Shown here in pieces: positions 1 through 26,873 of a DNA stretch of 26,873 bases. How positions within the stretch are numbered: the stretch's first letter is position 1; each line of letters starts with the position of its first letter. The notes under the pieces are model-generated. The model was not told where the DNA came from. It did not search any database and saw only the letters and a program-made list of their open reading frames with translations. Both the position numbers and the translations under genes were made by a program. Source of the DNA: a virus; the IMG/VR virus record IMGVR_UViG_3300035100_000562, positions 1 to 26,873 of that record, one strand, 5' to 3'.

Positions 1-2191
1 CGTAAGTGGGGCCGGTCACCGGCGCCACCCGGTTGAACCCCTCGACGCCCTTCACCGGCGCCACCTGCGCGAAGCCAACCTGCCGCGCCCAGCCATAGAC
101 CGCGCTGGTCTCGTAGCCGGTGTCGATCGCCAGCCGCGCGATGGTCATTGGCGCGCCGCTTGCATGTCTCCATGTCCGGCCCAGAAGATCGGTGAGCCCG
201 CGCCAGCACGCCGGATCGGCGGGCCCGCCGTCGATAACGATGTGATCCACCAGCCAGCTTTCCAACCCGCGCCCCCAGGCCCAGACATCGACCTCGATCC
301 GGTCCTTCTGCACGTCCGCCCCGGCCGTCAGGAACAAGCCCTTCTCAGGCACCGTGCCCGCCGGCCAGTCTTCCTTCTGACCCGCCAGCCGTTGCCAGTC
401 GGGTGCGTCGCCGGTCTCCACCCAGGTTTCGCCAAGCGAGGTGTTGACGAAGGTCTTCATCGCCTCGTCGCCGCCGGCGCGGGCGGAGAGGAAGTTTTTC
501 ACCATCGCCTCGAGCCGCACCCAGGGCGAATAGATCTCGTTGAGGTGGAACCCGGCGATGCCCGTGAAAGGCCGCCGCGCGCGCCACTCGCCCCGGCCCA
601 CGGCCGACCATCTTGCCTGGTCGTCCCACTTCGCGGCGCAGTGGATGCACTCGTAATGCGCCGTCGCCGGCCGGTGCTCACCCTGCTCGCTCTTCTCCCA
701 TCTGACCTGCCCCCAGACCAGCACCTGGGCCTCGCCGCACTCCGGGCACGGCACCCAGTATTGCCGCTGGTCGCTTTCCTCATAGGCCGTCTCGATCCGG
801 CTCGCGCCCCTGTTGGTGGGCGTCGAAACGAGCACGATCTTGCGGTTCCAGAAGGTCACCGTGCGTTTCCTCGCCAGATTCACCGGGTCACCCTCGGCGC
901 CGGCGCTGAACGGGTAGCGGTCAACCTCGTCGCACAGAAGTAACCGGATCGGCCGGCTCGCAAGCCCCGAGGGCGCATTGGCCCCGACAATCGTCAGATG
1001 GCCGCCGGCAAAGCGCTTGTGCAGGATCTTGTTGTTGCCGTCGCGCGACTTCGGGTTGGCGATCTTGTCCCTGAGGCACGGTGTGTCGCGCGCCATTGGC
1101 GAGAAACGGTCCTTTGACCAGGTCTCTGCGTCGCGCTCGGTCGGCATCACCACCATGATCGGCGCCGGATCCTGGTCGATGTGGTAACCGACGGCATTGT
1201 TCAGCATCTCGGTGTTGTGGGTCGGGATCATTGATCGCCCGGCCAGATAAAGCCTGTTCGGGCTGTTGACCTGGATACAGCGCACCGGAACGCTGGCGAC
1301 CCTTTCGACTGCAATGATCCGGCGGCGCTCGGTCTCGGTGGTGCGCCGGCCTTCGCGCGAGGCAAGCCGCGCCCGCTTGCGCGCAAGCCGGAACACGGGT
1401 GTGTCCTCGTAGATCATGAAGGAGAACCGCGTCGCGGGCTTACCCGGTTTGCGCACCCCGTCGATCACCACGCTCGGCTGCTTTGCAACGGCGGTAAACT
1501 TGATCCCCAGCGTCGCCAGCAACTCGCCAAAGCCCTCGGCCAGACGCGGGTATATCGTGATGAACTCGCAGCGCCCGCGGTCATCAATGTACCCATCCGT
1601 GTCCATCAGCCCCTGCAGCAGCGCCAGCCGCTGATCTTTCGATGCCCTGAGATAGGCCGGTGGAATATGCTTGCCCGTGTCCGGTGTCTTGCGCGACTTG
1701 ATGAGGCCCAGTTCCCGCAGCCTCAGGCTGAAGGGTTTTGCCTCCGGCAGAACCGGATCGACCGACGCCCCGTGCTTCCACTGCATGCCGAATTGCCGCC
1801 CGCATTCGGCACAGTTGCCTCCCTTGTACCGGCCGACCACGTTCATGTCGTGCCCGCGCCGGCAGATGTGGTCTGGCCAGGGAAAGGTCGGCCTGAGCGT
1901 CAGGATGTGCGCAAACCGCTTGTCCTTCGCCTTGACCTCCACCGCCATGCCGCAGCCGCGCAGGTGATCGGCGATTTCGAGATCATCCTCATGCGCGGTG
2001 ATCTGCGAACCATAGCTGTGCCCGTCACCCAGCCACACGCCGAGCACATAGGGCGGGATCGGCAGGTCGGCCTCGGGCAGCTCCAGTGCCCCCGCCACCG
2101 GGATGGCATAGCGGTTTCTTTTTCTGTCTGTGTAGTAATGCGCTGTCTCAGCAATCTCCCTCGTTGTCAGAACCATCCGGTGGCTCATCAT
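1..2191 (-). CDS. Phage terminase large subunit (GpA-like), C-terminal part with C-terminal half of an intein; runs off the left edge
   Basis: The minus-strand frame is open from a TAG near 2238 to the window edge with no stop. It first encodes the endonuclease part and C-terminal splicing part of an intein (to 1214). From 1213 it encodes terminase: an extein starting TEMLNNAVGYH, a Walker B-like LLLCDEVDR near 940, a CPEC...CIHC zinc-binding-like pair near 620-750, and nuclease-side sequence such as GADVQKDRIEVDVWAWGRG near 250-320. This is the GpA family ATPase/nuclease that packages phage DNA into proheads. The N-terminal part lies in another frame (2148-2723). If this half is translated independently, ATG codons at 2191, 2188 or 2176 could start it, with GGGGGA about 8 nt before 2191. 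Otherwise it is the downstream part of a frameshifted gene. The protein end is outside the window. Confidence 0.85.
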   Translation of the reverse strand, partial: MMSHRMVLTTREIAETAHYYTDRKRNRYAIPVAGALELPEADLPIPPYVLGVWLGDGHSYGSQITAHEDDLEIADHLRGCGMAVEVKAKDKRFAHILTLRPTFPWPDHICRRGHDMNVVGRYKGGNCAECGRQFGMQWKHGASVDPVLPEAKPFSLRLRELGLIKSRKTPDTGKHIPPAYLRASKDQRLALLQGLMDTDGYIDDRGRCEFITIYPRLAEGFGELLATLGIKFTAVAKQPSVVIDGVRKPGKPATRFSFMIYEDTPVFRLARKRARLASREGRRTTETERRRIIAVERVASVPVRCIQVNSPNRLYLAGRSMIPTHNTEMLNNAVGYHIDQDPAPIMVVMPTERDAETWSKDRFSPMARDTPCLRDKIANPKSRDGNNKILHKRFAGGHLTIVGANAPSGLASRPIRLLLCDEVDRYPFSAGAEGDPVNLARKRTVTFWNRKIVLVSTPTNRGASRIETAYEESDQRQYWVPCPECGEAQVLVWGQVRWEKSEQGEHRPATAHYECIHCAAKWDDQARWSAVGRGEWRARRPFTGIAGFHLNEIYSPWVRLEAMVKNFLSARAGGDEAMKTFVNTSLGETWVETGDAPDWQRLAGQKEDWPAGTVPEKGLFLTAGADVQKDRIEVDVWAWGRGLESWLVDHIVIDGGPADPACWRGLTDLLGRTWRHASGAPMTIARLAIDTGYETSAVYGWARQVGFAQVAPVKGVEGFNRVAPVTGPTY

Positions 2192-2447
2192 CGAACAGGT
2201 CCCCCATGGCGCGGCTCGCGCGCACCTCCGTGTCGGACTCTACCGCCCAGAGATGATCGGCATCGGCGATGATCGAACTGCCGTCCGAGAACCGCACCCG
2301 GTAGCAGGGCCGGTCCGTCATCACCCCGGTCGCTGCCGTCACCCGGCAGGGCCGGCCCCGCTCGTCGAAGATCACATCGCCAACCCTGATCTCGCCCATG
2401 GTCGTCCAACCCCCGGGCGTCGGGATGGGCGTGTCCAGTGCCAGCGC
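1214..2447 (-). other. Intein with LAGLIDADG-type endonuclease inside terminase Walker A, class 3 features, frame-broken
   Basis: The intein replaces the boundary between GK and T of the terminase P-loop (SSSQVGK / TEML). Residue 1 is Ala (ALALDTP), not Cys or Ser. Block B ends HLW, block F has VRCIQV, and the C-terminus is MIPTHN followed by Thr. Ala1 plus Trp in block B, Cys in block F and Thr two before the terminal Asn is the WCT signature of class 3 inteins, which were described from phage proteins. Two dodecapeptide-like motifs, LGVWLGDGHS near 2010-2040 and LLQGLMDTDGY near 1580-1620, mark a LAGLIDADG homing endonuclease. Between them lies a zinc-ribbon-like cluster (CRRGHD, then CAEC). 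The span is 1234 nt, which is 411 codons plus one base, so it fits a single extra nucleotide. The frame changes between about 2150 and 2200. Confidence 0.85.
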
Positions 2448-2723
2448 CTTGCCCACCTGCGAACTCGACATGATGACGACGGTCTCGGCAGCGCCGTCCG
2501 AGATCGCCTCCATGATCCCGCGCTGATACTCGGCGCGCGAGGTCCGCCAGCGCCCCGGCTCGGCGCTCGCCTCCGAACTCAACCGCCTGTTCGCATCCGC
2601 CCAGTCACTGATCGTCAACTCCGGCGGCGGTGTCAGCGCCTTCAGCGCCCGGCGCACCGACCTTTGCAGTACCGGCGTCCCCGACAGGGTCAGGATCGTC
2701 GTTGTCTCGCTCAAGGCGCACAT
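2148..2723 (-). CDS. Phage terminase large subunit (GpA-like), N-terminal part with N-terminal half of an intein
   Basis: This part encodes the terminase N-terminus (ELTISDWADANRRLSSEAS, then GRWRTSRAEYQRGIMEAISD) up to the Walker A-type motif SSSQVGK. An intein start, ALALDTPIPTPGGW, follows directly. The open frame continues through intein block B (SSIIADADHLW) and ends at a TGA at 2148, where the sequence has already lost intein similarity. The continuation is in the frame one base over (1-2191). The start at 2723 is chosen because ATG there is preceded by GGAG and leads straight into terminase-like sequence; upstream in-frame residues look like a shadow of the small-subunit gene, which overlaps by about 119 nt. 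On its own this product would be an inactive N-terminal fragment unless it is spliced in trans. Confidence 0.8.
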   Translation of the reverse strand: MCALSETTTILTLSGTPVLQRSVRRALKALTPPPELTISDWADANRRLSSEASAEPGRWRTSRAEYQRGIMEAISDGAAETVVIMSSSQVGKALALDTPIPTPGGWTTMGEIRVGDVIFDERGRPCRVTAATGVMTDRPCYRVRFSDGSSIIADADHLWAVESDTEVRASRAMGDLFDDEPPDGSDNEGDC

Positions 2724-3177
2724 CCGTCTCCGCCAGTTCCTCCAGCGCCTCGCGCATGGCCCCGCGCAGCACGTCCCGCACCGCCCCGGGGCTTGCCGCG
2801 GCATGGACCTGCGGCGCCAGCCGGTCGGGCAGCGCCAGAAGCCGCGTGCGCAGCAGCGCCAGCACCGCGATCCAGGCCGCCTCCGCGTCCTCGGCCGCGA
2901 TCACCGCGCCGCGCCTCGTTTCGGCCTCCATCTCGGCGAGATCGGCCCGCGCCCGGATGAACCGCGCCCGTTCGGCGGCATAGTCCGGCGCGCCGGCCTG
3001 CGCCTTCGCGGCCTGATCGCGCAGGTAACGCACATAGCCGCGCACCGAGCCGATCAGGTCGTATTGGCCCCGCGTGGCCTTCGGGATCACGCCCTCGCGG
3101 CTGAGCTGCTGCACCCGCCGCTCCGAGAGGTCCAGAAGCTTCGCGATCACCCCGATGGGCTGGCTGGGCGATGACAC
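2605..3177 (-). CDS. Phage terminase small subunit, Nu1-like
   Basis: The 190-aa protein opens with a MerR/excisionase-type winged helix-turn-helix (residues 8-45: IGVIAKLLDLSERRVQQLSR, then REGVIPKATRGQYDL). This is the DNA-recognition arrangement of Nu1-type small terminases, which bind the packaging site and recruit the large subunit. A long charged helical stretch follows (about residues 60-165, rich in A, R and E), as expected for oligomerisation. The gene lies immediately upstream of the GpA-like large subunit and overlaps its start, the usual order of the pair. It is the first gene of the left minus-strand block; the 114 bp to the divergent plus-strand gene must contain its promoter. 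The last 25 residues are low-complexity (G, A, D) and overlap the next gene. Confidence 0.85.
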   Translation of the reverse strand: MSSPSQPIGVIAKLLDLSERRVQQLSREGVIPKATRGQYDLIGSVRGYVRYLRDQAAKAQAGAPDYAAERARFIRARADLAEMEAETRRGAVIAAEDAEAAWIAVLALLRTRLLALPDRLAPQVHAAASPGAVRDVLRGAMREALEELAETDVRLERDNDDPDPVGDAGTAKVGAPGAEGADTAAGVDDQ

Positions 3178-3480: not shown

Positions 3481-3750
3481 ATGAACCGCCTGAACCCCCG
3501 GACCACGCCCCGCCATCAGCTTCGTGCCGAGAAGGCCCGTCGCAATCACGAAGCCGCGCTCGCCGCCTTCATCGGAAAGAAGGCCGAGATCGACGAGATG
3601 CTCGCCCGCCTGCAGGCGCTCAGCGACGATCACTTCGGGTTCGACCCCGAGGCGGTCAACTGGGCCATCGTCGGGACCCTCGAACACTACGCCAACCTGT
3701 TGAAGCGCATCACCGACAGCGCCTTCGGCGAAGGCGAATACGCCGAGTGA
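3481..3750 (+). CDS. Small hypothetical protein, 89 aa
   Basis: ATG at 3481 is preceded by AAGGAGA at a good distance. The N-terminal 30 residues are basic (RTTPRHQLRAEKARRNHEAA) and probably helical; the C-terminal half is acidic and ends GEGEYAE. There are no cysteines, signal peptide or membrane segment. It is the second gene of the plus-strand unit, 12 nt after the 58-aa gene. The charge asymmetry would suit a nucleic-acid- or protein-binding adaptor, but nothing specific supports that. Function unknown. Confidence 0.65.
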   Translation: MNRLNPRTTPRHQLRAEKARRNHEAALAAFIGKKAEIDEMLARLQALSDDHFGFDPEAVNWAIVGTLEHYANLLKRITDSAFGEGEYAE

Positions 3751-3773
3751 TCCCCGGCTCTGCCCGAACTCCG

Positions 3774-3791
3774 GCCCGCCCGCTGGCGGGC
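3774..3791 (+). terminator. GC-rich stem-loop between the second and third plus-strand genes
   Basis: GCCCGCC and GGCGGGC form a perfect 7-bp stem around the loop CGCT, 24 nt after the stop of the 89-aa gene. TTGGGG follows, not a T-run, so intrinsic termination would be weak. It may act as partial terminator or mRNA stabiliser. Confidence 0.4.
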
Positions 3792-3842
3792 TTGGGGTCG
3801 TAGAAGGCGCCGCATGTCGCGGCCCGATGAAGGAGACCCCGG

Positions 3843-4364
3843 ATGACCAAGCTTTCCGACACGCAACTCGTTATTCTCAGCGCTGCCGCGCAGCGCGACG
3901 ACCGCAACGTCCTGCCGCTCCCCGGCAGCTTGCGCGGAGGTGCCGCCGCCAAGGTGATCGGCGCGCTGCTGAAGCGTGGGCTGATCGCCGAGACGGTGAC
4001 GGACCAACGCGCGAAGGCCGATCCTGCCCTGAACCGCATCTGGCGCAACGACGAGGATGGTTGCGCGATCCTGCTGCACATCACCGACGCTGGCCTTGCC
4101 GCCATCGGCATCGAGTCGGAGCAGCCGGTTCCCGGCGCCGCGTCCAAGGTACGAATACCGCGCACTGGCACGAAGCAGGCAAGGCTCATCGAGATGCTCC
4201 GCGCCGAGGGCGGCGTCACCATCGACGAGATCGCGGCCGCGCTGTCGTGGAGGCCACACACCGTACGCGGCGCCATGGCTGGCGCGCTGAAGAAGCGGCT
4301 CGGGCTGACGATCACCTCCGAGAAGATTGAGGCGCGCGGACGGGTCTATCGCATAATTCCCTGA
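3843..4364 (+). CDS. DUF3489-domain protein, 173 aa
   Basis: Residues about 108-171 (TKQARLIEMLRAEGGVTIDE...) match the DUF3489 pattern, a winged-helix-like domain common in alphaproteobacterial phages and genomic islands. The N-terminal half (SDTQLVILSAAAQRDDRNVL, then a LITDAGLAAIG-like stretch) resembles a second helical DNA-binding-type unit and is also seen in DUF3489 proteins. ATG at 3843 has GGAG about 8 nt upstream. In many alphaproteobacteria DUF3489 genes sit with DUF2924/serine-recombinase cassettes; here the recombinase cassette lies about 16 kb away at the other end. A DNA-binding regulatory role is likely from the fold, but the target is unknown. Confidence 0.8.
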   Translation: MTKLSDTQLVILSAAAQRDDRNVLPLPGSLRGGAAAKVIGALLKRGLIAETVTDQRAKADPALNRIWRNDEDGCAILLHITDAGLAAIGIESEQPVPGAASKVRIPRTGTKQARLIEMLRAEGGVTIDEIAAALSWRPHTVRGAMAGALKKRLGLTITSEKIEARGRVYRIIP

Positions 4365-4382
4365 CTTGCCTCGCACCTGTTG

Positions 4383-4407
4383 CCGCCGTCCCTCGCCGGG
4401 GCGGCGG
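4383..4407. terminator. Hairpin between convergent genes, likely bidirectional terminator
   Basis: CCGCCG and CGGCGG, extended inside by CCC/GGG with one T-G mismatch, form a strong stem with loop TCGCC. It lies 18 nt after the plus-strand DUF3489 gene and just before the 3' end of the minus-strand gene at 4411, where terminators of both units are expected. TGCTTATTT follows on the plus strand. Confidence 0.6.
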
Positions 4408-4410
4408 TGC

Positions 4411-4635
4411 TTATTTCGTCCCGCGCACACGGAGCGCTTCGAACAGCCGCCGCAGGGCGAAGGAGCGGGCCAGGCTGACGATGGTGAAAATTCCGCCCAT
4501 CTTGAGGTTCTGCACCAGCGTCGTGTGCAGGCCGAACACGGGGAAGATCAGCATTTGCGTCACGACGGCGACGCCGTAGCCCACGGCCACGTTGGCGAGG
4601 GCCTCGATCAGCGACATAAGCCGGGATTGCTTCAT
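4411..4635 (-). CDS. Small phage membrane protein, DUF7220-like, 74 aa
   Basis: The 74-aa protein (start MKQSRLMSLIEALANVAVGY) has two hydrophobic segments: residues about 12-36 (ANVAVGYGVAVVTQMLIFPV) and about 44-60 (LKMGGIFTIVSLARSFALRR). A basic C-terminal end (RRLFEALRVRGTK) follows, so both ends are probably cytoplasmic. The pattern, including SLIEA.AN..VGYGVAV.TQ and the ARSF.LRRLFE end, matches a small family found in alphaproteobacterial and other phages (DUF7220 as I recall it). The ATG overlaps the stop of the methyltransferase gene (ATGA), so the two are translationally coupled. The role is unknown; membrane placement with a methyltransferase might suggest host take-over or exclusion, but that is speculation. 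Confidence 0.75.
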   Translation of the reverse strand: MKQSRLMSLIEALANVAVGYGVAVVTQMLIFPVFGLHTTLVQNLKMGGIFTIVSLARSFALRRLFEALRVRGTK

Positions 4636-5867
4636 GCGGCCGCCGCCTTCGTGTCGCGGACCTCATCGAAGGACCGCCCCTCACCATCCAGTACCGCCTG
4701 CCGCCCGGTGAACCGCTGCCAGCGCTCCACGATCACGTCGACGTATTTCGGATCAAGCTCCAGAAGCGCCGCCTTGCGTCCGGTCGTCTCGGCCGCGATC
4801 AGCGTCGTGCCGCTGCCGCCGAAGGGGTCGAACACGAGATCGCCCACGCGGCTGGAATTGCGCAGGGCGCGTTCGACCAGAGCCACCGGCTTCATCGTCG
4901 GGTGCAACTCGTTCTTCGCCGGCCGGTCGATCAGCCACACATCGCCCTGGTCACGCGCCCCGCACCAGCGGCGCTTGGTTCCTTCGGGCCAGCCATAGAG
5001 GATCGGCTCGTATTGGCGCTGGTAGTCGGACCGCCCCAGCGTGAACCTGTCCTTGGCCCAGATCACGAAGGTCGACCAGTGGCCGCCGGCCTCGGTGAAG
5101 GCCTTCTGCAGCGTGTGCAGCTCACTCGACGACATGCAGATATAGACCGCGCCCGCGGTGTGCGCATTGATCAGCGCGCAGGCATCATACAGGAACTGGC
5201 CGAAATCCTGCCCAAGCGCGTCGTTCCTGATCCGGCGATCCTTGCCGGCCTTCTCGGCACCAACGCCACCGGCATAATCGACGTTGTAGGGCGGATCGCA
5301 GAAGCAGATGTTGGCCTTGTCACCCCCAAGCAGGCGCTCCACGTCCGTCGCCACCGTGGCATCGCCGCAGAGCAGCCGGTGCGGGCCCATCACCCACAGA
5401 TCGCCCGGGCGGCTGACCGGGTCTTCCGGCGCGTCGGGAACCTCGTCGGCATCCTCGGCAGCCGCTTCCTCGACCCCGGACAACAACGCGTTCAACTCGT
5501 CCTCGGTAAAGCCCGTGAGCCCGAGGTCGAACTCGGCCTCAATGAGGTCGCCCAGCTCCAACCCCAACAGGTCCTCGTCCCACTCGGCGTTCTGGGCCGA
5601 GCGGTTGTCCATAATCCGGAAGGCCCGCGCCTGGGCCTCGGTCAGCCCCTTGGCCACATGCACCGGCGCGGTCTCGAGCCCCAGTTGTCGCGCCGCTTCC
5701 AGCCGCGTGTGCCCGGCAAGTACCACCATGTTCTCGTCCACCACGATAGGCTGGCGCCAACCGAACTCCGCGATGGAAGCGGCGACCGCTGCCAAGGCCT
5801 TGTCGTTGCGGCGTGGGTTGCGGGCATAGGGAATGATCTGCCCGAGAGGCAGTTCGATCACGTCCAT
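4632..5867 (-). CDS. ParB-like domain fused to N6-adenine/N4-cytosine DNA methyltransferase
   Basis: Residues 1-90 are a ParB/sulfiredoxin-type domain (LGQIIPYARNPRRNDKAL; VVLAGHTRLEAARQLG, the GHxR box). Residues 155-400 are a class-beta DNA methyltransferase: catalytic DPPY at 191-194 (CFCDPPYNVDY) precedes the SAM-binding motif FDPFGGSGTT at 346-355. The 411 aa are typical for this phage fusion family. It probably methylates phage or host DNA to evade restriction or to regulate replication; the ParB domain may add DNA binding or nuclease-like function. ATG at 5867 has AGGA 8 nt upstream. Repeats of GAAACGAAA begin 24 bp upstream. No restriction endonuclease partner is visible, so this is an orphan methyltransferase. 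Confidence 0.93.
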   Translation of the reverse strand: MDVIELPLGQIIPYARNPRRNDKALAAVAASIAEFGWRQPIVVDENMVVLAGHTRLEAARQLGLETAPVHVAKGLTEAQARAFRIMDNRSAQNAEWDEDLLGLELGDLIEAEFDLGLTGFTEDELNALLSGVEEAAAEDADEVPDAPEDPVSRPGDLWVMGPHRLLCGDATVATDVERLLGGDKANICFCDPPYNVDYAGGVGAEKAGKDRRIRNDALGQDFGQFLYDACALINAHTAGAVYICMSSSELHTLQKAFTEAGGHWSTFVIWAKDRFTLGRSDYQRQYEPILYGWPEGTKRRWCGARDQGDVWLIDRPAKNELHPTMKPVALVERALRNSSRVGDLVFDPFGGSGTTLIAAETTGRKAALLELDPKYVDVIVERWQRFTGRQAVLDGEGRSFDEVRDTKAAAA

Positions 5868-18340: not shown

Positions 18341-19111
18341 ATGACAAAAAACGCACTGAATATATGCCTTGCGACATCCGCATTATTTTTACCCCTCTAC
18401 CTTTGGCGGAGCACTTATCCTTCAAGCGATTGGGCGGTTTTGGCCTTTCTCCCGCTCTCAGTAATGTTATTTTTCGGATACCTGTCGCTTAGCGCGGCCA
18501 TTTTTCGAGCCAGGTTCCGCGCCGCAATCAGAGCAGGATCCCCGCTAATGAGCATTTTATCCGGTAGAATAAGGGCGATTTCAGGGGCCCTAATATTTGT
18601 GTTGATCTCGATACCGCTTCTGGCTTGGCAAGCACTCGTATCGAGCCTTTCAGAAATCCTAATTCTGATCGCGCTTGGCGTTCTTTCCGGGGGCTTGTTT
18701 GCCGGATTAAAACTGAAGTTTTTGCCACATTTCCACCAGCCCTTCGCCAACGCAGTAGCCATTTCAATCGGCACATGGATTGCCGCCGCAGCCTTTATTC
18801 CAATCATCGCATGGATGAACTGGTACTATGTGTCTTATCCTGGAGAAATCCGTACCGCCAGCCTTCCTGAAGCGGTGATGCAGGGTTTGCAGGAACTCCC
18901 ACCACGCCGAGGCTGGATAGCCGAAATTTTGGCGCCCATGTACGCCTATGAAGCCGGAAAGTTGTGGGCTGTTGTACAGTTAGGCTCTTCTAAATGGTCG
19001 ACCATACTTTACAGTCTTGATACAGCCTTGGTAAGCTTTATAGTAGCACGGTCCAGCATAGTTCTTACCCTACTTGCACAAACCCTAGATCGAGACAATG
19101 ACGCTGCATGA
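18341..19111 (+). CDS. Polytopic membrane protein, 256 aa, unknown family (cassette gene 1)
   Basis: Hydrophobic segments are at about residues 5-22, 31-55, 78-100, 104-124, 137-160 and 221-247, so 5-6 membrane spans. Basic residues between spans 2 and 3 (FRARFRAAIRAG) suggest that loop is cytoplasmic. Between the last two spans lies a soluble part of about 60 residues (GEIRTASLPEAVMQGLQELP). No transporter or channel signature is recognised. The ribosome site is weak. It is clearly more AT-rich than the phage genes and overlaps the next gene by ATGA, so the pair arrived and works together. Placement between the repressor and integrase genes is where phages carry exclusion, defence or toxin genes. 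Function not known. Confidence 0.8.
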   Translation: MTKNALNICLATSALFLPLYLWRSTYPSSDWAVLAFLPLSVMLFFGYLSLSAAIFRARFRAAIRAGSPLMSILSGRIRAISGALIFVLISIPLLAWQALVSSLSEILILIALGVLSGGLFAGLKLKFLPHFHQPFANAVAISIGTWIAAAAFIPIIAWMNWYYVSYPGEIRTASLPEAVMQGLQELPPRRGWIAEILAPMYAYEAGKLWAVVQLGSSKWSTILYSLDTALVSFIVARSSIVLTLLAQTLDRDNDAA

Positions 19112-20106
19112 CCCAGTCACCGAACGGATATGAGACCAAGAAAAACAAGACAGCATCGCGTTTTTTTTGGGCGGCAATTCTGGTGTTGGCAGGCCTTACA
19201 TTGATGCTCACATTGGTCGGCACTCTACGCAACTCCGAACCTGTGGGACCAACCACCTTCGAAATCCCAAAGACAACGCTAGAGACTATACTTAGCGAGG
19301 CTGCGGAAAAAGCACAGGTAATTGTTGCGCCCGAAACAGAAACGATCCTGCAAAACGTCTACGCTCCGGTATATGCAGCGATCCCAGAATATGCGGAATT
19401 CCATTATTCCGTATTGGGGGAATACGTTGAATTGACAGAAGCCGCGTTCGGCCAAATGAGCGATGGGCTCTACGATCGGTTGTTCAAGGGGTTTGAACAG
19501 CGGCTCTCAAACGCTGTAACATTGTTGGATCAAAAGTATTCCGAGGCGTACCGCAGCGCACTCAAGGAGGAGATCGAAACGACAATTCCGACAGAGCAAT
19601 TATCACTGCCCCTTGGGGAATTGACGCAAGCTGCACTGGAAGACGCAGTCGGCCGCGCAAGAGTTACGCTTCCACTTGCCACAGTCGTAGTTGGTGTTGC
19701 AGGGAGCGGCACTCTTAAAGTTGTCGCAGCAACCGTTGCAAAGAAAATGGCAGCAAAAGTTGCTGCTAAAGCAGCGGCTAAAGGTGTTGCAAAAGGCGGT
19801 GGTTTTCTGGTCGGTGCTGGCGGAGGAGCTTTATTGTGCTCTTGGAGTGGCCCTGGAGCAGCCCTATGTGGCATCCTCGGCGGAACAGCAGCATGGCTTC
19901 TAGCTGACGCAGCCGTCGTCAATATTGACGAATATTTCAATCGAGATGAGTTCGAAGCTGAACTCCGGGCACTGATCGACGAAGATAGAGCGGCCAGGCA
20001 ACTCCTAATTGAGGAAGCACTGCGAAACAAAGCAGCTCAAATGGATGCAGCCACAAATGAAATCATGAAAGATTTTACACTTCGCGATTTGTCCTCGGGG
20101 AACTAA
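19108..20106 (+). CDS. Membrane-anchored protein with glycine-rich hydrophobic domain, 332 aa (cassette gene 2)
   Basis: A basic N-terminus (NGYETKKNKTASRFF) precedes one membrane span at about 19-40. A long helical, mostly acidic stretch follows (about 50-180). A hydrophobic helix is at 187-208 (TLPLATVVVGVAGSGTLKVV), then a Lys/Ala-rich amphipathic segment (AKKMAAKVAAKAAAKGVAKG) and a Gly-rich hydrophobic region 230-270 (GGGFLVGAGGGALLCSWSGP). The C-terminal 60 residues are acidic and helical (NRDEFEAELRALIDEDRAAR). The glycine-zipper-like middle resembles membrane-inserting or pore-forming segments, but no family is identified. The start overlaps gene 1 (ATGA), with no gap. Codon use and base composition follow gene 1. 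Confidence 0.82.
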   Translation: MTQSPNGYETKKNKTASRFFWAAILVLAGLTLMLTLVGTLRNSEPVGPTTFEIPKTTLETILSEAAEKAQVIVAPETETILQNVYAPVYAAIPEYAEFHYSVLGEYVELTEAAFGQMSDGLYDRLFKGFEQRLSNAVTLLDQKYSEAYRSALKEEIETTIPTEQLSLPLGELTQAALEDAVGRARVTLPLATVVVGVAGSGTLKVVAATVAKKMAAKVAAKAAAKGVAKGGGFLVGAGGGALLCSWSGPGAALCGILGGTAAWLLADAAVVNIDEYFNRDEFEAELRALIDEDRAARQLLIEEALRNKAAQMDAATNEIMKDFTLRDLSSGN

Positions 20107-20592: not shown

Positions 20593-21093
20593 ATGAAGCA
20601 TGACAATAAGATAACGCCCGCAAAGCTGGGTCTGGATCCACAGACTGATCAAACCGTCCTGGCTCGCCTGGCCACCTTGAGGGCCATGTCGGTCAAGGAG
20701 CTAAAGGCCGAATGGGAGAAGCTCTTCGGCATCCCTGCGCCGAACAACAGCCGCAAGTTCCTGGAATTCAGGATCGCCTATCGCATCCAGGAATTGACCT
20801 ACGGCGGCCCCGATAGGGAAACGCGCTGCATGCTGGATCTGCTGGCTGATGAGGTCGAGGGACATGCGCGACACAAGCACCGGATCGGGGATCCCCGAAA
20901 TCCCGTCACGGGCACCAAACTCATCCGCGAGTGGGACGGCGTTGAGCACACCGTAACCGTGCTGAAAGACGGCTTCGACTGGCAGGGGCGCAAATTCAAA
21001 TCGCTCTCGGCCGTGGCCCGCACCATTACCGGCACACGCTGGAATGGCTATCGCTTCTTCGGGCTACGTGAGCGCAAGCGGGAGCAAGCATGA
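20593..21093 (+). CDS. DUF2924-domain protein, recombinase-associated
   Basis: The start at 20593 (MKHDNKITPAKLGLDPQTDQ) follows GGAGGAAT. The body has the DUF2924 signature: LRAMSVKELKAEWEKLFGIP, NNSRKFLEFRIAYRIQELTY, then TKLIREWDGVEHTVTVLKDG, FDWQGRKFKSLSAVARTITG and TRWNGYRFFGL. DUF2924 proteins accompany large serine recombinases in alphaproteobacterial islands and are presumed accessory factors. At 166 aa the length is normal. Its stop overlaps the recombinase start (ATGA), so the two are coupled. Confidence 0.93.
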   Translation: MKHDNKITPAKLGLDPQTDQTVLARLATLRAMSVKELKAEWEKLFGIPAPNNSRKFLEFRIAYRIQELTYGGPDRETRCMLDLLADEVEGHARHKHRIGDPRNPVTGTKLIREWDGVEHTVTVLKDGFDWQGRKFKSLSAVARTITGTRWNGYRFFGLRERKREQA

Positions 21094-22418
21094 TGGAGGG
21101 CACCAACCGCCTGAACCGTCGGCTGCGTTGCGCCATCTACACTCGCAAGTCGACCGAAGAAGGTCTCGACATGGAGTTCAACACCCTCGACGCCCAGCGT
21201 GAGGCTTGCGAGGCCTACATCGCCAGTCAGCGATCTGAAGGTTGGGTCGCCACCCGCGATCGCTATGACGACGGCGGTTTCTCTGGCGGCAACCTCGAAC
21301 GACCCGGTCTCAAGCAGCTTCTGACGGACATCGACGATGGTCTGGTCGACGTGGTTGTGGTTTACAAGATCGACCGCCTGTCGCGGTCGTTGATGGATTT
21401 CTCCAAGCTGGTCGAGGTGTTCGACCGCAACGGTGTCACCTTCGTCTCTGTCACGCAGTCGTTCAACACCACCACTTCGATGGGACGGCTGACACTGAAC
21501 ATCCTGCTCAGTTTTGCCCAGTTCGAGCGTGAGGTGATCGGTGAGCGCATCCGCGACAAAGTTGCCGCGTCCCGCAAACGCGGAATCTGGATGGGAGGCT
21601 ACGTGCCCCTCGGCTACGATGTGCAGGATCGAAAGTTGGTGGTGAACGACGCAGAGGCCGCATCGGTCCGTCGCATCTTCGAGCGGTTTGTTGAACTCGG
21701 CTCCGCCACCGTTTTGGCACGCGAACTTCGCCGCGAGGGGTTCCGAAACAAACAGGGCACGCTGATCGACAAAGGTTACCTCTACCGGCTGCTCAAGAAC
21801 CGAGTTTATCGCGGTGAGGCAGTTCACAAGGGCAAAGCCTATCCCGGTGAACATGACGCTATCATCGACGCAGGCCTTTGGGATCGGGCGCATGCCATCT
21901 TGCAGGAAAGCCCCCGCAAGCGGGCCAACAACAGCCGTGCGCAGACGCCAGCGCTGCTGAAGGGGCTGATCTTTGGCGAAAATGGCGCGGCCATGACGCC
22001 CACCAGCACCAAGAAGGGGGCGAAGCTCTATCGATACTACGTTTCCATGGATGTGATCCGGAATCGCGAAACCTGCGAGGAGACTGCCCCAACACGGCTT
22101 GCGGCTGGTATGGTTGAGGACGCTGTAGTGACCGAGGTTCGGCGCATTCTGCAGACGCCAGAGGTGGTCACGCAGGTGCTAGCCGCCTTGAAACGCGAAG
22201 GCGGCGGCGCGTCAGAGGCGGATGCCATCGCAGCGCTGCATGAGTTCGGCGCCCTCTGGGCGCGGCTGTTTCCGGCCGAGCAGGCACGGATCATCCAGCT
22301 TTTGGTGCGGCGCGTCACCGTCACCGCAGCAGGGCTTGAGGTGGACATTCGGCGCGAAGGCATTGCCGGGGTCGTCCGCGAGATGGTCGCGCCGCGCAGG
22401 GTGGAGGCAGCGGAATGA
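21090..22418 (+). CDS. Large serine recombinase (integrase)
   Basis: The resolvase N-terminal domain has catalytic Ser21 in IYTRKSTEEG, the DGGFSGGNLERPGL segment, KIDRLSRSLMDF and the helix FAQFEREVIGERIRDK. The recombinase DNA-binding domain covers about 185-285 (VNDAEAASVRRIFERFVELG; KGYLYRLLKNRVYRGEAVHK). The usual cysteine zinc ribbon is missing: LLKGLIFGENGAAMTPTSTK has no CxxC pair, as in some members of this clade. The 442-aa length is at the short end of the large serine class. It would insert and excise the element. The start is set by the ATGA overlap with DUF2924 and GGGAG upstream. Confidence 0.95.
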   Translation: MMEGTNRLNRRLRCAIYTRKSTEEGLDMEFNTLDAQREACEAYIASQRSEGWVATRDRYDDGGFSGGNLERPGLKQLLTDIDDGLVDVVVVYKIDRLSRSLMDFSKLVEVFDRNGVTFVSVTQSFNTTTSMGRLTLNILLSFAQFEREVIGERIRDKVAASRKRGIWMGGYVPLGYDVQDRKLVVNDAEAASVRRIFERFVELGSATVLARELRREGFRNKQGTLIDKGYLYRLLKNRVYRGEAVHKGKAYPGEHDAIIDAGLWDRAHAILQESPRKRANNSRAQTPALLKGLIFGENGAAMTPTSTKKGAKLYRYYVSMDVIRNRETCEETAPTRLAAGMVEDAVVTEVRRILQTPEVVTQVLAALKREGGGASEADAIAALHEFGALWARLFPAEQARIIQLLVRRVTVTAAGLEVDIRREGIAGVVREMVAPRRVEAAE

Positions 22419-23085: not shown

Positions 23086-24051
23086 CTACATTGAGTCTGC
23101 AAGGGGGTGGTAGCAGGCTGTACACACACCATCTGACTGCTTTTCAAGACGCGGTGCTTCGCGCTCGCATTTGTCGCTGGCAAAGGCGCACCGCGCACGG
23201 AAAGCGCACCCTTCTGGCGGGTTCAGCGGGTCGGGCAATTCGGTTTCTCGACCCTCTGGCGCGGTCAACGGACGTCCGACCACTGGCGCACTGTCTGCCA
23301 GAAGCTTGGTATATGGATGTTTGGGATGAGCAAAGACTTCATCCGCCGGACCGACCTCGACCACTGAGCCAAAATAAAGTACCGCGACCCGGTCGCTAAC
23401 CGCCTCGACCACGGCAAGATCGTGGCTGATGAATAGATAGGTCAGCCCGAACTGTTCTTTCAAATCGGCCAGCAGGTTCAGAACCTGCGCCTGCACAGAC
23501 ACATCCAGCGCCGAAACGGGCTCATCGAGAATGAGGATGCGCGCATCCGCGGCCAGCGCGCGGGCAATGCCGATCCGCTGCGCTTGCCCGCCTGAAAACT
23601 CATGCGGATAACGATCCAGAAACTCCTCGCGCAGGTTCACTGCTGCAAAGATCTCCCGAACGCGGTCCGCACGGGCCGCCGCGGGCATCCTGTGAAGGTG
23701 CCTCAGCGGCGCTTCCATGATCTGCCGGATCGTCTTGCGCGGGTTGAGGCTGCTTATCGGATCCTGGAAAACGTATTGGATCTTGCGGCCGAACAAGGCC
23801 GGATCGGCGTTGTCCAGCGGCTCTCCATTGATTTCGATCGTTCCCGAACTGGGCGGCAACAGGCCGACCAGCATCCGCGCCAAAGTGGACTTGCCACAGC
23901 CGGATTCACCAACGATGCCAAGGGTTTCCCCCTCCTCGACAGTCAAAGACAGCGGTTGAACGGCCCGCACCATTGCGCGAGGGGGGCCGAACATGCGTTT
24001 GCCCACGGGAAAGACCTTGCTCAATCCGGTCAGTTTGAGAGCAGTGGTCAT
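23086..24051 (-). CDS. Peptide/nickel-type ABC transporter ATP-binding protein (OppF/DppF-like)
   Basis: Walker A is GESGCGKST (48-56), the ABC signature FSGGQ (152-156), and Walker B ILILDEP (172-178); the C-terminal oligopeptide-transporter domain has CAFRARCAFASDKC. The 321 aa are usual for the F subunit of dipeptide/oligopeptide importers. The start at 24051 overlaps the fusion gene stop (ATGA); the upstream 31 in-frame residues are its shadow. It energises substrate import at the inner face of the membrane. The C-terminus ends normally (CTACYHPLADSM), so the inserted element did not truncate it. The peptide, sugar or metal specificity is not resolvable here. Confidence 0.92.
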   Translation of the reverse strand: MTTALKLTGLSKVFPVGKRMFGPPRAMVRAVQPLSLTVEEGETLGIVGESGCGKSTLARMLVGLLPPSSGTIEINGEPLDNADPALFGRKIQYVFQDPISSLNPRKTIRQIMEAPLRHLHRMPAAARADRVREIFAAVNLREEFLDRYPHEFSGGQAQRIGIARALAADARILILDEPVSALDVSVQAQVLNLLADLKEQFGLTYLFISHDLAVVEAVSDRVAVLYFGSVVEVGPADEVFAHPKHPYTKLLADSAPVVGRPLTAPEGRETELPDPLNPPEGCAFRARCAFASDKCEREAPRLEKQSDGVCTACYHPLADSM

Positions 24052-25934
24052 TGGCTCGCCTCCTGCGGTGACGTTTCCGGAGCAAGGCAGCGCACAAGGC
24101 TTTCGGCACCGTGCCGCGCAAGCTCGATATTCCCCCGCCGACATGCATCACTTGCCTTATGGCAGCGCTCGGCAAAGGAGCATCCCTCGGGCAGCTTGTC
24201 CACCACAGGGGGCAGGCCGGGAATGGCTGCCAACTCGCGACGGCCTTGCCCCAGTTCAGGAACGCAAGCCATGAGCCGCGCGGTATAGGGGTGGGCCGGT
24301 GCATTGAGAATGGTTTTTGTCGGACCTTCTTCGACAATCCGGCCCGCATACATCACGGCCACCCGGTCACAAAGTTGGGCCACCACGCCGAAATCATGGG
24401 TGATAAAGATGATGGCCAACCCACGATCCCGCCGCAGATCATCCAGCAACGACAGGATTTGCGCCTGCACGGTCACATCCAGCGCAGTGGTCGGCTCATC
24501 CGCGATGATGACCTCGGGCTCGTTGGCCAGCGCCATGGCGATCCCTACGCGCTGCCGCATGCCGCCGGACATCTCGTGCGGGTAACTGTCAACGCGCTGT
24601 TCCGCATTGGGAATGCGCACCGATTTCAACAGGTCGATGGCGTGGGCGCGGGCCTTTGATCTATCAATGGAGTGATGGGCGCGAACCGCCTCGATCAGCT
24701 GGTCGCCAACCGTGTAAAGCGGGTGCAGCGTGGCGAGCGGGTCCTGGAAAATGTAGGCGATCCTCTCGCCCCTGAGCGATCGGAGTTTTTCATAGGGCGC
24801 GCCGATCAGGTCTTCGCCCTTATAGTGGACAGCACCACCGGTGATAACGCCGGGGGGCGAGGCCACCAGTCCCATGATGCTGAGGGCTGTCACCGATTTG
24901 CCAGATCCGCTTTCGCCGATCACCCCAAGGCATTCGCCAGGGTTCACTTGCAAATCCACACCTCCCACGGCCTTGTAAACGCGGTCCTTGACGTGGAACT
25001 GGGTCTTTAGCCCACGCAATGCAAGCAAGGTGTCGGGTTTGGTTTCCGGGACCGGTCCGGTCCGCTTGACCATTGTGGCCGGCATCGGGCGCGACAGGGC
25101 GCCGGATTTTAGGCGCGGGTCCAGCGCGTCGCGCACCCCGTCCCCCAGAAGGTTGATCGCCATGACGATGATCAGGATCATCGCACCGGGCACGACCGAG
25201 GTATGCGGATTGGTGATCAGCGCCGACCGCGCCTCGCCCAGCATCGATCCGAGATCGGCCTGCGGCGGCTGCGACCCGAGCCCCAGAAAGCTGAGACCGG
25301 CGGTTTCAAGGATCATCCAGCCGATCGTGGTGGACATGGCGATCACGATCACCGGGATCACGTTGGGAAGCACTTCGGTCAGGATGATGCGCGCATTCGT
25401 CATGCCCGACAGCCGCGCCGCATCGACGAATTCCTTATGAGCGATGCCCACGGTAATTCCGCGGATGTTGCGGGCAAAGAACGGGATGTTGACAGCCGCC
25501 ACTGCGATCAGCGCGTTCATCAGCCCCGGCCCGAGGGCTGCGACAATGGCCAGCGCCAGTAGGATGTAGGGGAATGCCATCAGCATATCGACGCCGCGCA
25601 TGATGATGTTGTCGGTCCGCCCGCCGTAAAAGCCGGCGATGATGCCGATGGCCGCGCCAAGCGTCGCGGCGATGATTGCAGCGGCGAAACCCACGGCCAG
25701 CGATAGGCGCGTGCCCCAAAGCAAGCGGCTGAGAAGATCGCGACCAAGGTGATCTGTTCCCAGCAACGCACCTTCGGAAAGCGGCCGTTTGAACCGGTTC
25801 GCCGTGTCTGTCACATCGGGATCGGCCAGCGGCAAAAGTGGCGTGATCAGCGCAAGCAAAACGACCAGCCCCATTACGATTAGTCCGCCTAGCGCAAGCC
25901 GGTTGCGCGCCAGAAGCTTGAAGAAAGCCATCAT
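24048..25934 (-). CDS. ABC transporter permease (DppC-like) fused to ATP-binding protein (DppD-like)
   Basis: Residues 1-285 are a DppC-type permease: N-terminal span [20 protein letters not shown], then [20 protein letters not shown] and the EAA loop [20 protein letters not shown] (169-188). After a linker (about 286-300) residues 303-628 are a DppD-type ATPase with Walker [10 protein letters not shown] (340-348), signature [10 protein letters not shown] (455-464) and Walker B EVIIADEP (474-481), plus the C-terminal CSFAERC motif. A permease-ATPase fusion occurs in several alphaproteobacterial opp/dpp systems. It would form a heterodimer with DppB-like permease and the F-type ATPase. The start ATG at 25934 overlaps the permease stop (ATGA). 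Confidence 0.93.
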
Positions 25935-26873
25935 GTCTTAATCCTCGGGTCGAGCAGGCTTTGTGCGACATCGACCGCGATGTTGAACATGACGTAGCAA
26001 GCCGCGACAAAGACGACGCCGCCCTGCACCAGCAGGATGTCCCGTTTGAGGATGGCATCGACCAGCATCCGCCCAACGCCGGGCCACTGGAACACCATTT
26101 CGATATAGACCGCCCCGGACAGAACGAACCCGGCCTGCACCCCCAGCACCGGAATGATGCTGACCATCGCGGCGCGCAGGGCATGGCGCCAGATGACCGA
26201 TCGTTCATGCACGCCCTTGGCCCGTGCGGTACGGATGAAATCCTGCCTCAGCACCTCGAGCATGGCCGAGCGGGACAGGCGGGCGATGACACCTGTCGCC
26301 ACCACCGCCAACGCCAAAGCGGGCAGGGTCAGGTGGTTGATCAGTGCAGGCAGGTCACGCGCGCCATAGATGGGCCACATGCCGGACACCGGGAACCATC
26401 GCAGTTTCACGGCAAAGATGAGGATCATCATCATACCAAGGAAAAACGAGGGGATTGAAATGCCAAGAAGCACAGCGAAAGTAATGGCCTTGTCAGCCAA
26501 CCCGTATTGCCGGGCAGCCGATACGACGCCTGCTGCGATACCGAGGAGCGAGCACAGGACAAATGAAGTGCCCGCAAGGACCAACGTCGCCCCGAAGCGG
26601 TCAAGCACCTCGTCCAGAACCGCCCGGTTGAGAGAGAAGCTGCGCCCGAAATCGCCTTGAAGCATGTTGCCGAGCCAGATGAAATATCGTTGCACCATCG
26701 GCTTATCCAAGCCGAGGTCGCGGTTCAGTTTTTCCACGTTTTCCGGGGTCGCGTAGGACCCGAGAATGGCCGTGGCGGGGTCGCCGGGGATCATGGCCAT
26801 GATGAAGAAGACAATGATCGAAATTCCGAACAAGACCGGAATCGCGGAAATCAGCCTCTTGAGGATATAGCCT
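25931..26873 (-). CDS. ABC transporter permease (DppB-like), N-terminus off the right edge
   Basis: The open frame extends past the window edge. In-window sequence begins GYILKRLISAIPVLFGISII, the usual first span of DppB/OppB, so only a few residues are missing; a TTG at 26833 is internal and not the start. Later are MIPGDPATAILGSYATPENV, the FGRSFSLNRAV-like segment, and the EAA loop RQDFIRTARAKGVHERSVIW. Spans are seen in the usual six-helix layout. It pairs with the fused permease-ATPase to make the substrate channel. The periplasmic binding protein would lie beyond the window. Confidence 0.92.
   Translation of the reverse strand, partial: GYILKRLISAIPVLFGISIIVFFIMAMIPGDPATAILGSYATPENVEKLNRDLGLDKPMVQRYFIWLGNMLQGDFGRSFSLNRAVLDEVLDRFGATLVLAGTSFVLCSLLGIAAGVVSAARQYGLADKAITFAVLLGISIPSFFLGMMMILIFAVKLRWFPVSGMWPIYGARDLPALINHLTLPALALAVVATGVIARLSRSAMLEVLRQDFIRTARAKGVHERSVIWRHALRAAMVSIIPVLGVQAGFVLSGAVYIEMVFQWPGVGRMLVDAILKRDILLVQGGVVFVAACYVMFNIAVDVAQSLLDPRIKT

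Follow-up and report, generated by a model that had tools for sequence, protein, structure and literature searches.

A phage terminase gene that changes frame within its class 3 intein: two conserved overlapping genes and a probable natural split intein in Rhodobacteraceae

Does a gene for the terminase large subunit (TerL) that changes reading frame in the middle of an intein encode two proteins that are later joined, or is it simply broken? The question is raised by a viral stretch of 26,873 nucleotides (nt), positions 1 to 26,873 of IMG/VR record IMGVR_UViG_3300035100_000562 (the window, meaning here the whole stretch analyzed). The original prediction, made from the letters alone, weighed a frameshift against a fractured terminase rejoined by trans-splicing. 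By the comparisons reported below, the existence of two conserved overlapping genes is well supported. The reading that we favor, at a probability of roughly 0.8, is that TerL is encoded by these two genes and that its halves would be joined by trans-splicing of a natural split class 3 intein, a reaction that we infer from the conserved sequence features.

The two frames of the terminase gene

The window begins inside a gene for a GpA-type TerL on the minus strand, assigned by matches to PF05876 and PF20454, the GpA ATPase and nuclease domains. An intein interrupts this gene within Walker A, with SSSQVGK at the end of the N-extein and TEMLNN at the start of the C-extein. The intein extends from Ala1 (base 2447) to the Asn at base 1214; its measured length of 1234 nt leaves a remainder of 1 and so equals the 411 codons plus 1 nt that had been predicted. 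The predicted frame break at 2148/2191 was also correctly placed: the N frame, carrying the N-extein and intein blocks A and B, ended at a TGA (2148-2150), and the C frame, with an ATG at 2189-2191, was open past a TAG (2240-2242) up to the contig end. As had been proposed, the break lies after block B and before the endonuclease, in the loop that the structure prediction modeled with the lowest confidence.

Profile searches identified the parts on both sides of the break. The N-extein matched positions 1-44 of the GpA_ATPase profile, and the N-half homologue in a related locus, L218, matched the PHROG terminase large subunit (E 2.5e-46). The C-terminal intein part (IntC) matched LAGLIDADG_3 (E 2.2e-6), while the C-extein matched GpA_ATPase (E 2.1e-76) and GpA_nuclease (E 6.4e-61). 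The start of terL-N at 2720 (MCALSETTTIL) is putative, the open reading frame (ORF) being open as far as an ATG at 2804. Features are collected in Table 1; the L218 homologue of the small-subunit gene listed there matched PHROG 57, terminase small subunit (E 3.5e-28).

Ala occupied position 1 in 13/13 split copies checked, with no Cys, Ser or Thr nucleophile there, and every copy that reached them carried DHLW (or EHLW/AHLW), VRC and THN, the motifs of the Trp-Cys-Thr (WCT) triplet of class 3 inteins. Across 41 aligned inteins, W67, C390 and T409 were invariant, and the best PDB profile matches were the class 3 DnaB inteins 6rix, 6bs8 and 6riy. A structure predicted on a read-through composite of both halves, made for the fold only and not as two chains, gave a pLDDT of 94.1 and a pTM of 0.92, with the minimum (65-69) at residues 71-90, where the break lies. 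Along its length the composite resembled PI-SceI, and in the splicing domain it resembled the class 3 DnaB inteins; this model shows that the two parts would make a complete intein and endonuclease. Charge complementarity between the N-terminal intein part (IntN, -9 to -13) and IntC (+8 to +20) was set aside as uninformative because cis intein cores are alike (mean -5 and +12).

Table 1. Features of the divided terminase gene and its neighbor, in window coordinates
Feature	Position	Strand	Remarks
terL-N gene	2148..2720	-	N-extein (~91 aa, Walker A to SSSQVGK) and IntN (99 aa); ORF and translation
IntN, putative split class 3 intein	2148..2447	-	Ala1, block A, block B with DHLW, acidic tail, TGA stop
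IntN site	2247..2249	-	invariant in 41 aligned inteins and all 13 split copies checked
Gene overlap terL-N/terL-C	2148..2191	-	44 nt, +1 frame relation
GGGGGA, Shine-Dalgarno-like purine run	2200..2205	-	GRRGGA/GAAGGG in relatives
terL-C start codon ATG (predicted)	2189..2191	-	ATG in 19, TTG in 1 of 20 loci
IntC (326 aa)	1214..2191	-	LAGLIDADG homing endonuclease and blocks F and G, ending THN
LAGLIDADG motif 1 (VLGVWLGDGHS)	2015..2047	-	Asp kept in 13/13 copies checked
LAGLIDADG motif 2 (LLQGLMDTDGYI)	1586..1621	-	kept in 12/12 copies reaching motif 2
Block F Cys (VRC) of WCT triplet, predicted branch-point nucleophile	1277..1279	-	invariant in 41 inteins
Thr-His-Asn, C-terminal splice junction (block G)	1214..1222	-	Thr and Asn invariant, His nearly so (41 inteins)
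C-extein: remaining Walker A (TE...), GpA ATPase and nuclease domains	2..1213	-	truncated by contig end
Terminase small subunit gene	2605..3177	-	directly upstream of terL-N; weak helix-turn-helix matches

Conservation of the break and selection on both halves

The clade sharing this arrangement comprised 20 loci with 18 distinct sequences, from Rhodobacteraceae isolates, metagenome-assembled genomes (MAGs) and viral contigs, and synonymous divergence (dS) within it reached >1. Relatives of the window came from a scan of viral contigs (one, L002), a scan of genomes (11, L025-L035) and a scan with the C-extein (seven). L002 was 94% identical to the window and shared the break, and the 11 genomic loci, 76-93% identical over IntC, were all broken at the same place. 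Overall, the break and the position of the downstream start codon were kept in 20/20 loci with the +1 offset fixed; Ala1 and the C start were 256 nt apart in every one, and the intein measured 1234 nt wherever it was complete. Isolates with the same break include Thalassovita, Seohaeicola, Thalassobius and Paradonghicola, and the hosts of the integrated viruses with a split terminase are marine and related bacteria. The comparison with close relatives that the original prediction had called for therefore brought up no relative with one base fewer and a single frame.

Both ends were present in 208 related intein loci; 186 of these were continuous and 22 broken, the latter being 19 of the Rhodobacteraceae split clade, two of a second lineage (L044 and L194) and a single further locus, L049. 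A tree that included 13 of the split copies placed them in a single clade (support 100/100). The nearest cis inteins, L036 (Parvibaculum) and L037 (Opitutae), are class 3 LAGLIDADG inteins at the same GpA TerL site, with the same motifs and ~50% identity, but are encoded in a single continuous frame; their sister placement is weak. All 62 intein-free relatives in viral contigs were single-frame across the insertion site, and no cis copy of the split intein was found in this TerL subfamily among viral contigs. Members of the split clade were absent from phage and plasmid collections, and no further ones turned up when 395-397 genomes from the same family and order were sampled.

Pairwise ratios of nonsynonymous to synonymous divergence (dN/dS) were 0.01-0.19 in the N-extein, IntN, IntC and C-extein, and by this measure all coding parts are under purifying selection. 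In IntN, where the N-frame pattern extended to nt 219, parsimony steps per site at the three codon positions were 0.40, 0.42 and 2.96 in the N frame; just past the overlap (after nt 300), they were 0.80, 0.56 and 2.96 in the C frame. The third-position changes thus moved from the N frame to the C frame, indicating that selection switches frame across the break. The overlap (intein sites 271-300; window 2148-2177) was slow in both frames, and its C-frame third positions took 0.78 steps per site, ~4-fold fewer than in the rest of IntC, a slowness that fits dual coding or an RNA signal. Further stops or indels were absent from all 18 distinct inteins. With the break, the start codon and the 1234-nt length kept under strong purifying selection, the split gene is the better supported of the two options that the original prediction had left open.

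Proposed trans-splicing and its alternatives

A natural split is recognized by two genes that are conserved as such, and this is the pattern seen in the 20/20 relatives, with both halves under selection and the start codon conserved. We propose that gene 1 makes the N-extein and IntN, ending at the TGA at 2148, and that gene 2 would start at the ATG at 2191, inside gene 1, to make IntC, with its complete LAGLIDADG endonuclease, and the C-extein. IntN and IntC would associate and splice in trans via the class 3 route, in which the block F Cys would take the N-extein, followed by transesterification to Thr+1 and Asn cyclization. VGK would thereby be ligated to TE, restoring Walker A (the P-loop) of the packaging ATPase. 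Initiation at 2191, association of the fragments, splicing, function of the product in packaging and endonuclease activity are each predicted steps.

ATG codons had been noted at 2191, 2188 and 2176. All three ATGs are present in the window, but only that at 2191 is conserved in the clade; that at 2188 is not, and 2176 is GCG in about half of the loci. The start triplet is among the least-changed of the linker, with one step across the 18 distinct sequences. The predicted GGGGGA was found upstream of the ATGs, and a purine run lies 9-14 nt upstream of the C start in 20/20 loci. Independent initiation of the C half at 2191 would be the simplest account of these features.

Programmed +1 ribosomal frameshifting in the linker, by which both frames would be one gene yielding an ordinary cis precursor, is the best of the alternatives and still unlikely. 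The +1 offset fixed in all 20 loci and the depressed third-position change in the overlap both suit it, and the same RNA would yield the short N product too. However, a C-frame TGA stands 12 nt upstream of the ATG in 13/20 loci and, together with the N-frame stop, confines any shift there to <60 nt; within this span no conserved slippery heptamer was seen, the alignment being judged by eye, and the combination of a conserved slippery site, a stimulatory element and a fixed shift point that marks programmed +1 frameshifting was not found. IntC opens with a TTREIA segment in which the second Thr did not vary across 41 inteins; a shift at the N-frame TGA would come too late to include this segment, and four loci have no stop at which to shift. 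Frameshifting also leaves the invariant start codon, with ATG to TTG as its sole change, unexplained, and L044 and L194 differ in frame offset. A prfB-like shift at the N-frame TGA, where an AAGGAG/AGGGAG run lies just upstream, was rejected on three points: re-pairing of the UGC codon is not plausible, the four loci are without the stop, and the product would lack TTREIA. Slippage of the transcript at the GGGGG run was also rejected; the run is not conserved, being GAGGG or GAAGG in most relatives.

There is only a slim chance that both proteins are made and never ligated, the halves forming a noncovalent terminase and the intein merely carrying the homing endonuclease. Intein fragments do generally bind tightly, and the trans reaction is itself deduced from sequence; yet the cut falls within Walker A, and selection has preserved Trp, Cys, Thr, His and Asn, the splicing residues. 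Slimmer still is the case for a dead gene, in which the halves would be nonfunctional and the frameshift simply inherited in a prophage undergoing decay. A one-base offset is the expected trace of a simple indel, but the low dN/dS on both sides of the break at such dS, the 18 distinct inteins free of further stops and indels, and the intact head and tail genes contradict it; the predicted option that the frameshift abolishes packaging fails on the same ratios and on the identical break in all 20 loci. Sequencing or assembly error, to which a single-base offset in one metagenomic contig might point, is refuted by independent assemblies, the break being shared with 19 other loci including isolates and no unexplained isolated break occurring in 187 other loci; the "one extra base" originally invoked thus fails as a local error, and it may be how the split first arose.

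Several points count against two genes joined by trans-splicing. The two halves and the ligated product are predictions from sequence, not observations at the protein level, and the fold was computed on one read-through composite chain, so it does not cover the assembly of separate chains. The N-frame TGA at 2148 is kept in 16/20 loci; L002, L025, L026 and L027 have lost it (TGA to CGA), and their IntN would gain a tail of 41-53 residues in a frame that overlaps IntC. The Shine-Dalgarno match is moderate, with duplex energies of -5.6 to -8.6 kcal/mol (13 tested) that ~7-27% of positions equal, and its strength was dropped as proof of initiation. The slow overlap could also be an RNA signal, and in the second lineage L194 shows no clear start codon where L044 has one.

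A second lineage, known systems and genomic setting

In L044 (a MAG; 3555-4804) and L194 (a viral contig; 1754-3008), a class 3 intein interrupts a different terminase, with IntC 72% identical between them. The break falls after block B and ahead of the endonuclease in each, at dN/dS of 0.08-0.17 and dS >1.3, values that speak for purifying selection, whereas a cis homologue, L225, is uninterrupted. In L044 the stop and start codons overlap as GTGA, and GGGGGTGG lies upstream. As two sequences, this lineage is weaker evidence. We lean slightly toward the view that endonuclease-bearing class 3 terminase inteins have split naturally at least twice, in the Rhodobacteraceae GpA clade and in L044/L194, each time with overlapping or nearly abutting genes and the homing endonuclease inside IntC. 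If true, such inteins would be intermediate forms that link cis homing inteins to split inteins lacking an endonuclease, and they would occur in cultured hosts.

L049, on a contig of Bacteroidetes bacterium 41-46, holds a terminase intein of class 3 in which TGA occupies conserved Trp positions (HQ*Q, LGL*LGDG). It was rejected as a third split because recoding is simpler at such positions; the element probably reads TGA as Trp.

In the open-licence literature, the sole naturally split class 3 intein that we found reported is AceL NrdHF, from a phage-like gene in a metagenome (Hoffmann et al. 2020, PMC7891396). It resembles the window intein in Ala1, in an IntN of 98 aa (99 in the window) and in being split where the endonuclease sits in cis inteins. 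It differs in its MCT triplet, its IntC of 48 aa and the separate gene for a GIY-YIG endonuclease that parts its halves (PMC7891396), whereas the window intein has the canonical WCT triplet, an IntC of 326 aa with an internal LAGLIDADG endonuclease, and genes overlapping by 44 nt. Fractured genes, and the split intein AceL-TerL, are alike in that phage genes, terminase included, are cut by split inteins. AceL-TerL differs by its atypical split, with a 25-aa IntN (PMC11766414), and fractured genes encode a free-standing endonuclease between their two parts (so described for AceL NrdHF, PMC7891396); the window has no separate endonuclease gene there, its endonuclease lying inside IntC. The mycobacterial class 3 DnaB inteins (6bs8, 6rix) share the splicing fold and signature, with 61% identity to 6bs8 over 69 residues, but are endonuclease-free cis mini-inteins in another host protein. 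A class 3 intein has been split artificially (PMC10559147), and among the 1701 class 3 inteins surveyed in nr in 2020 none was split. The open-licence literature yielded no description of a naturally split class 3 intein that lies in a terminase or retains its endonuclease. The split arrangement appears rare, and here the gene-drive enzyme is still carried.

If the proposed reading holds, a phage packaging ATPase would depend on joining two proteins across its P-loop. The complete homing endonuclease in one half bears on how cis homing inteins become split inteins, and the clade of 20, with its canonical catalytic triplet and several members in cultured isolates, makes the proposal testable in a native host. 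The clade would also supply new split intein pairs whose two predicted catalytic nucleophiles sit together on a single fragment, a property useful for protein ligation. Automatic annotation may well call such genes frameshifted pseudogenes. Thalassovita autumnalis CECT 5118 carries two different split-intein copies, on contigs NZ_CYSB01000024 and NZ_CYSB01000048 (L030 and L033), which offer a chance to probe cross-reactivity of halves within one cell.

In Thalassobius vesicularis, the split gene lies between the terminase small subunit and genes for portal, decoration, major capsid, tape-measure and tail proteins, and this phage looks complete apart from the break, with a lambda-like packaging, head and tail cluster. 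Of such a prophage the window covers the early/lysogeny side, with repressor, serine recombinase, primase and helicase. Host genes for an oligopeptide ABC transporter (23086-26872, minus strand) flank the prophage ~0.3 kb beyond the ORF that follows the serine recombinase (21090-22418). Near the repressor, two adjacent ORFs (18341-20106, plus strand; 256 and 332 aa) that include stretches of hydrophobic character or rich in glycine gave neither a PADLOC nor a Pfam match and are possible lysogenic cargo. On the minus strand at 4632-5867, a ParB-N domain is fused to an N6/N4 DNA methylase, with a strong PADLOC match to a type II methyltransferase; such fusions are common in phages.
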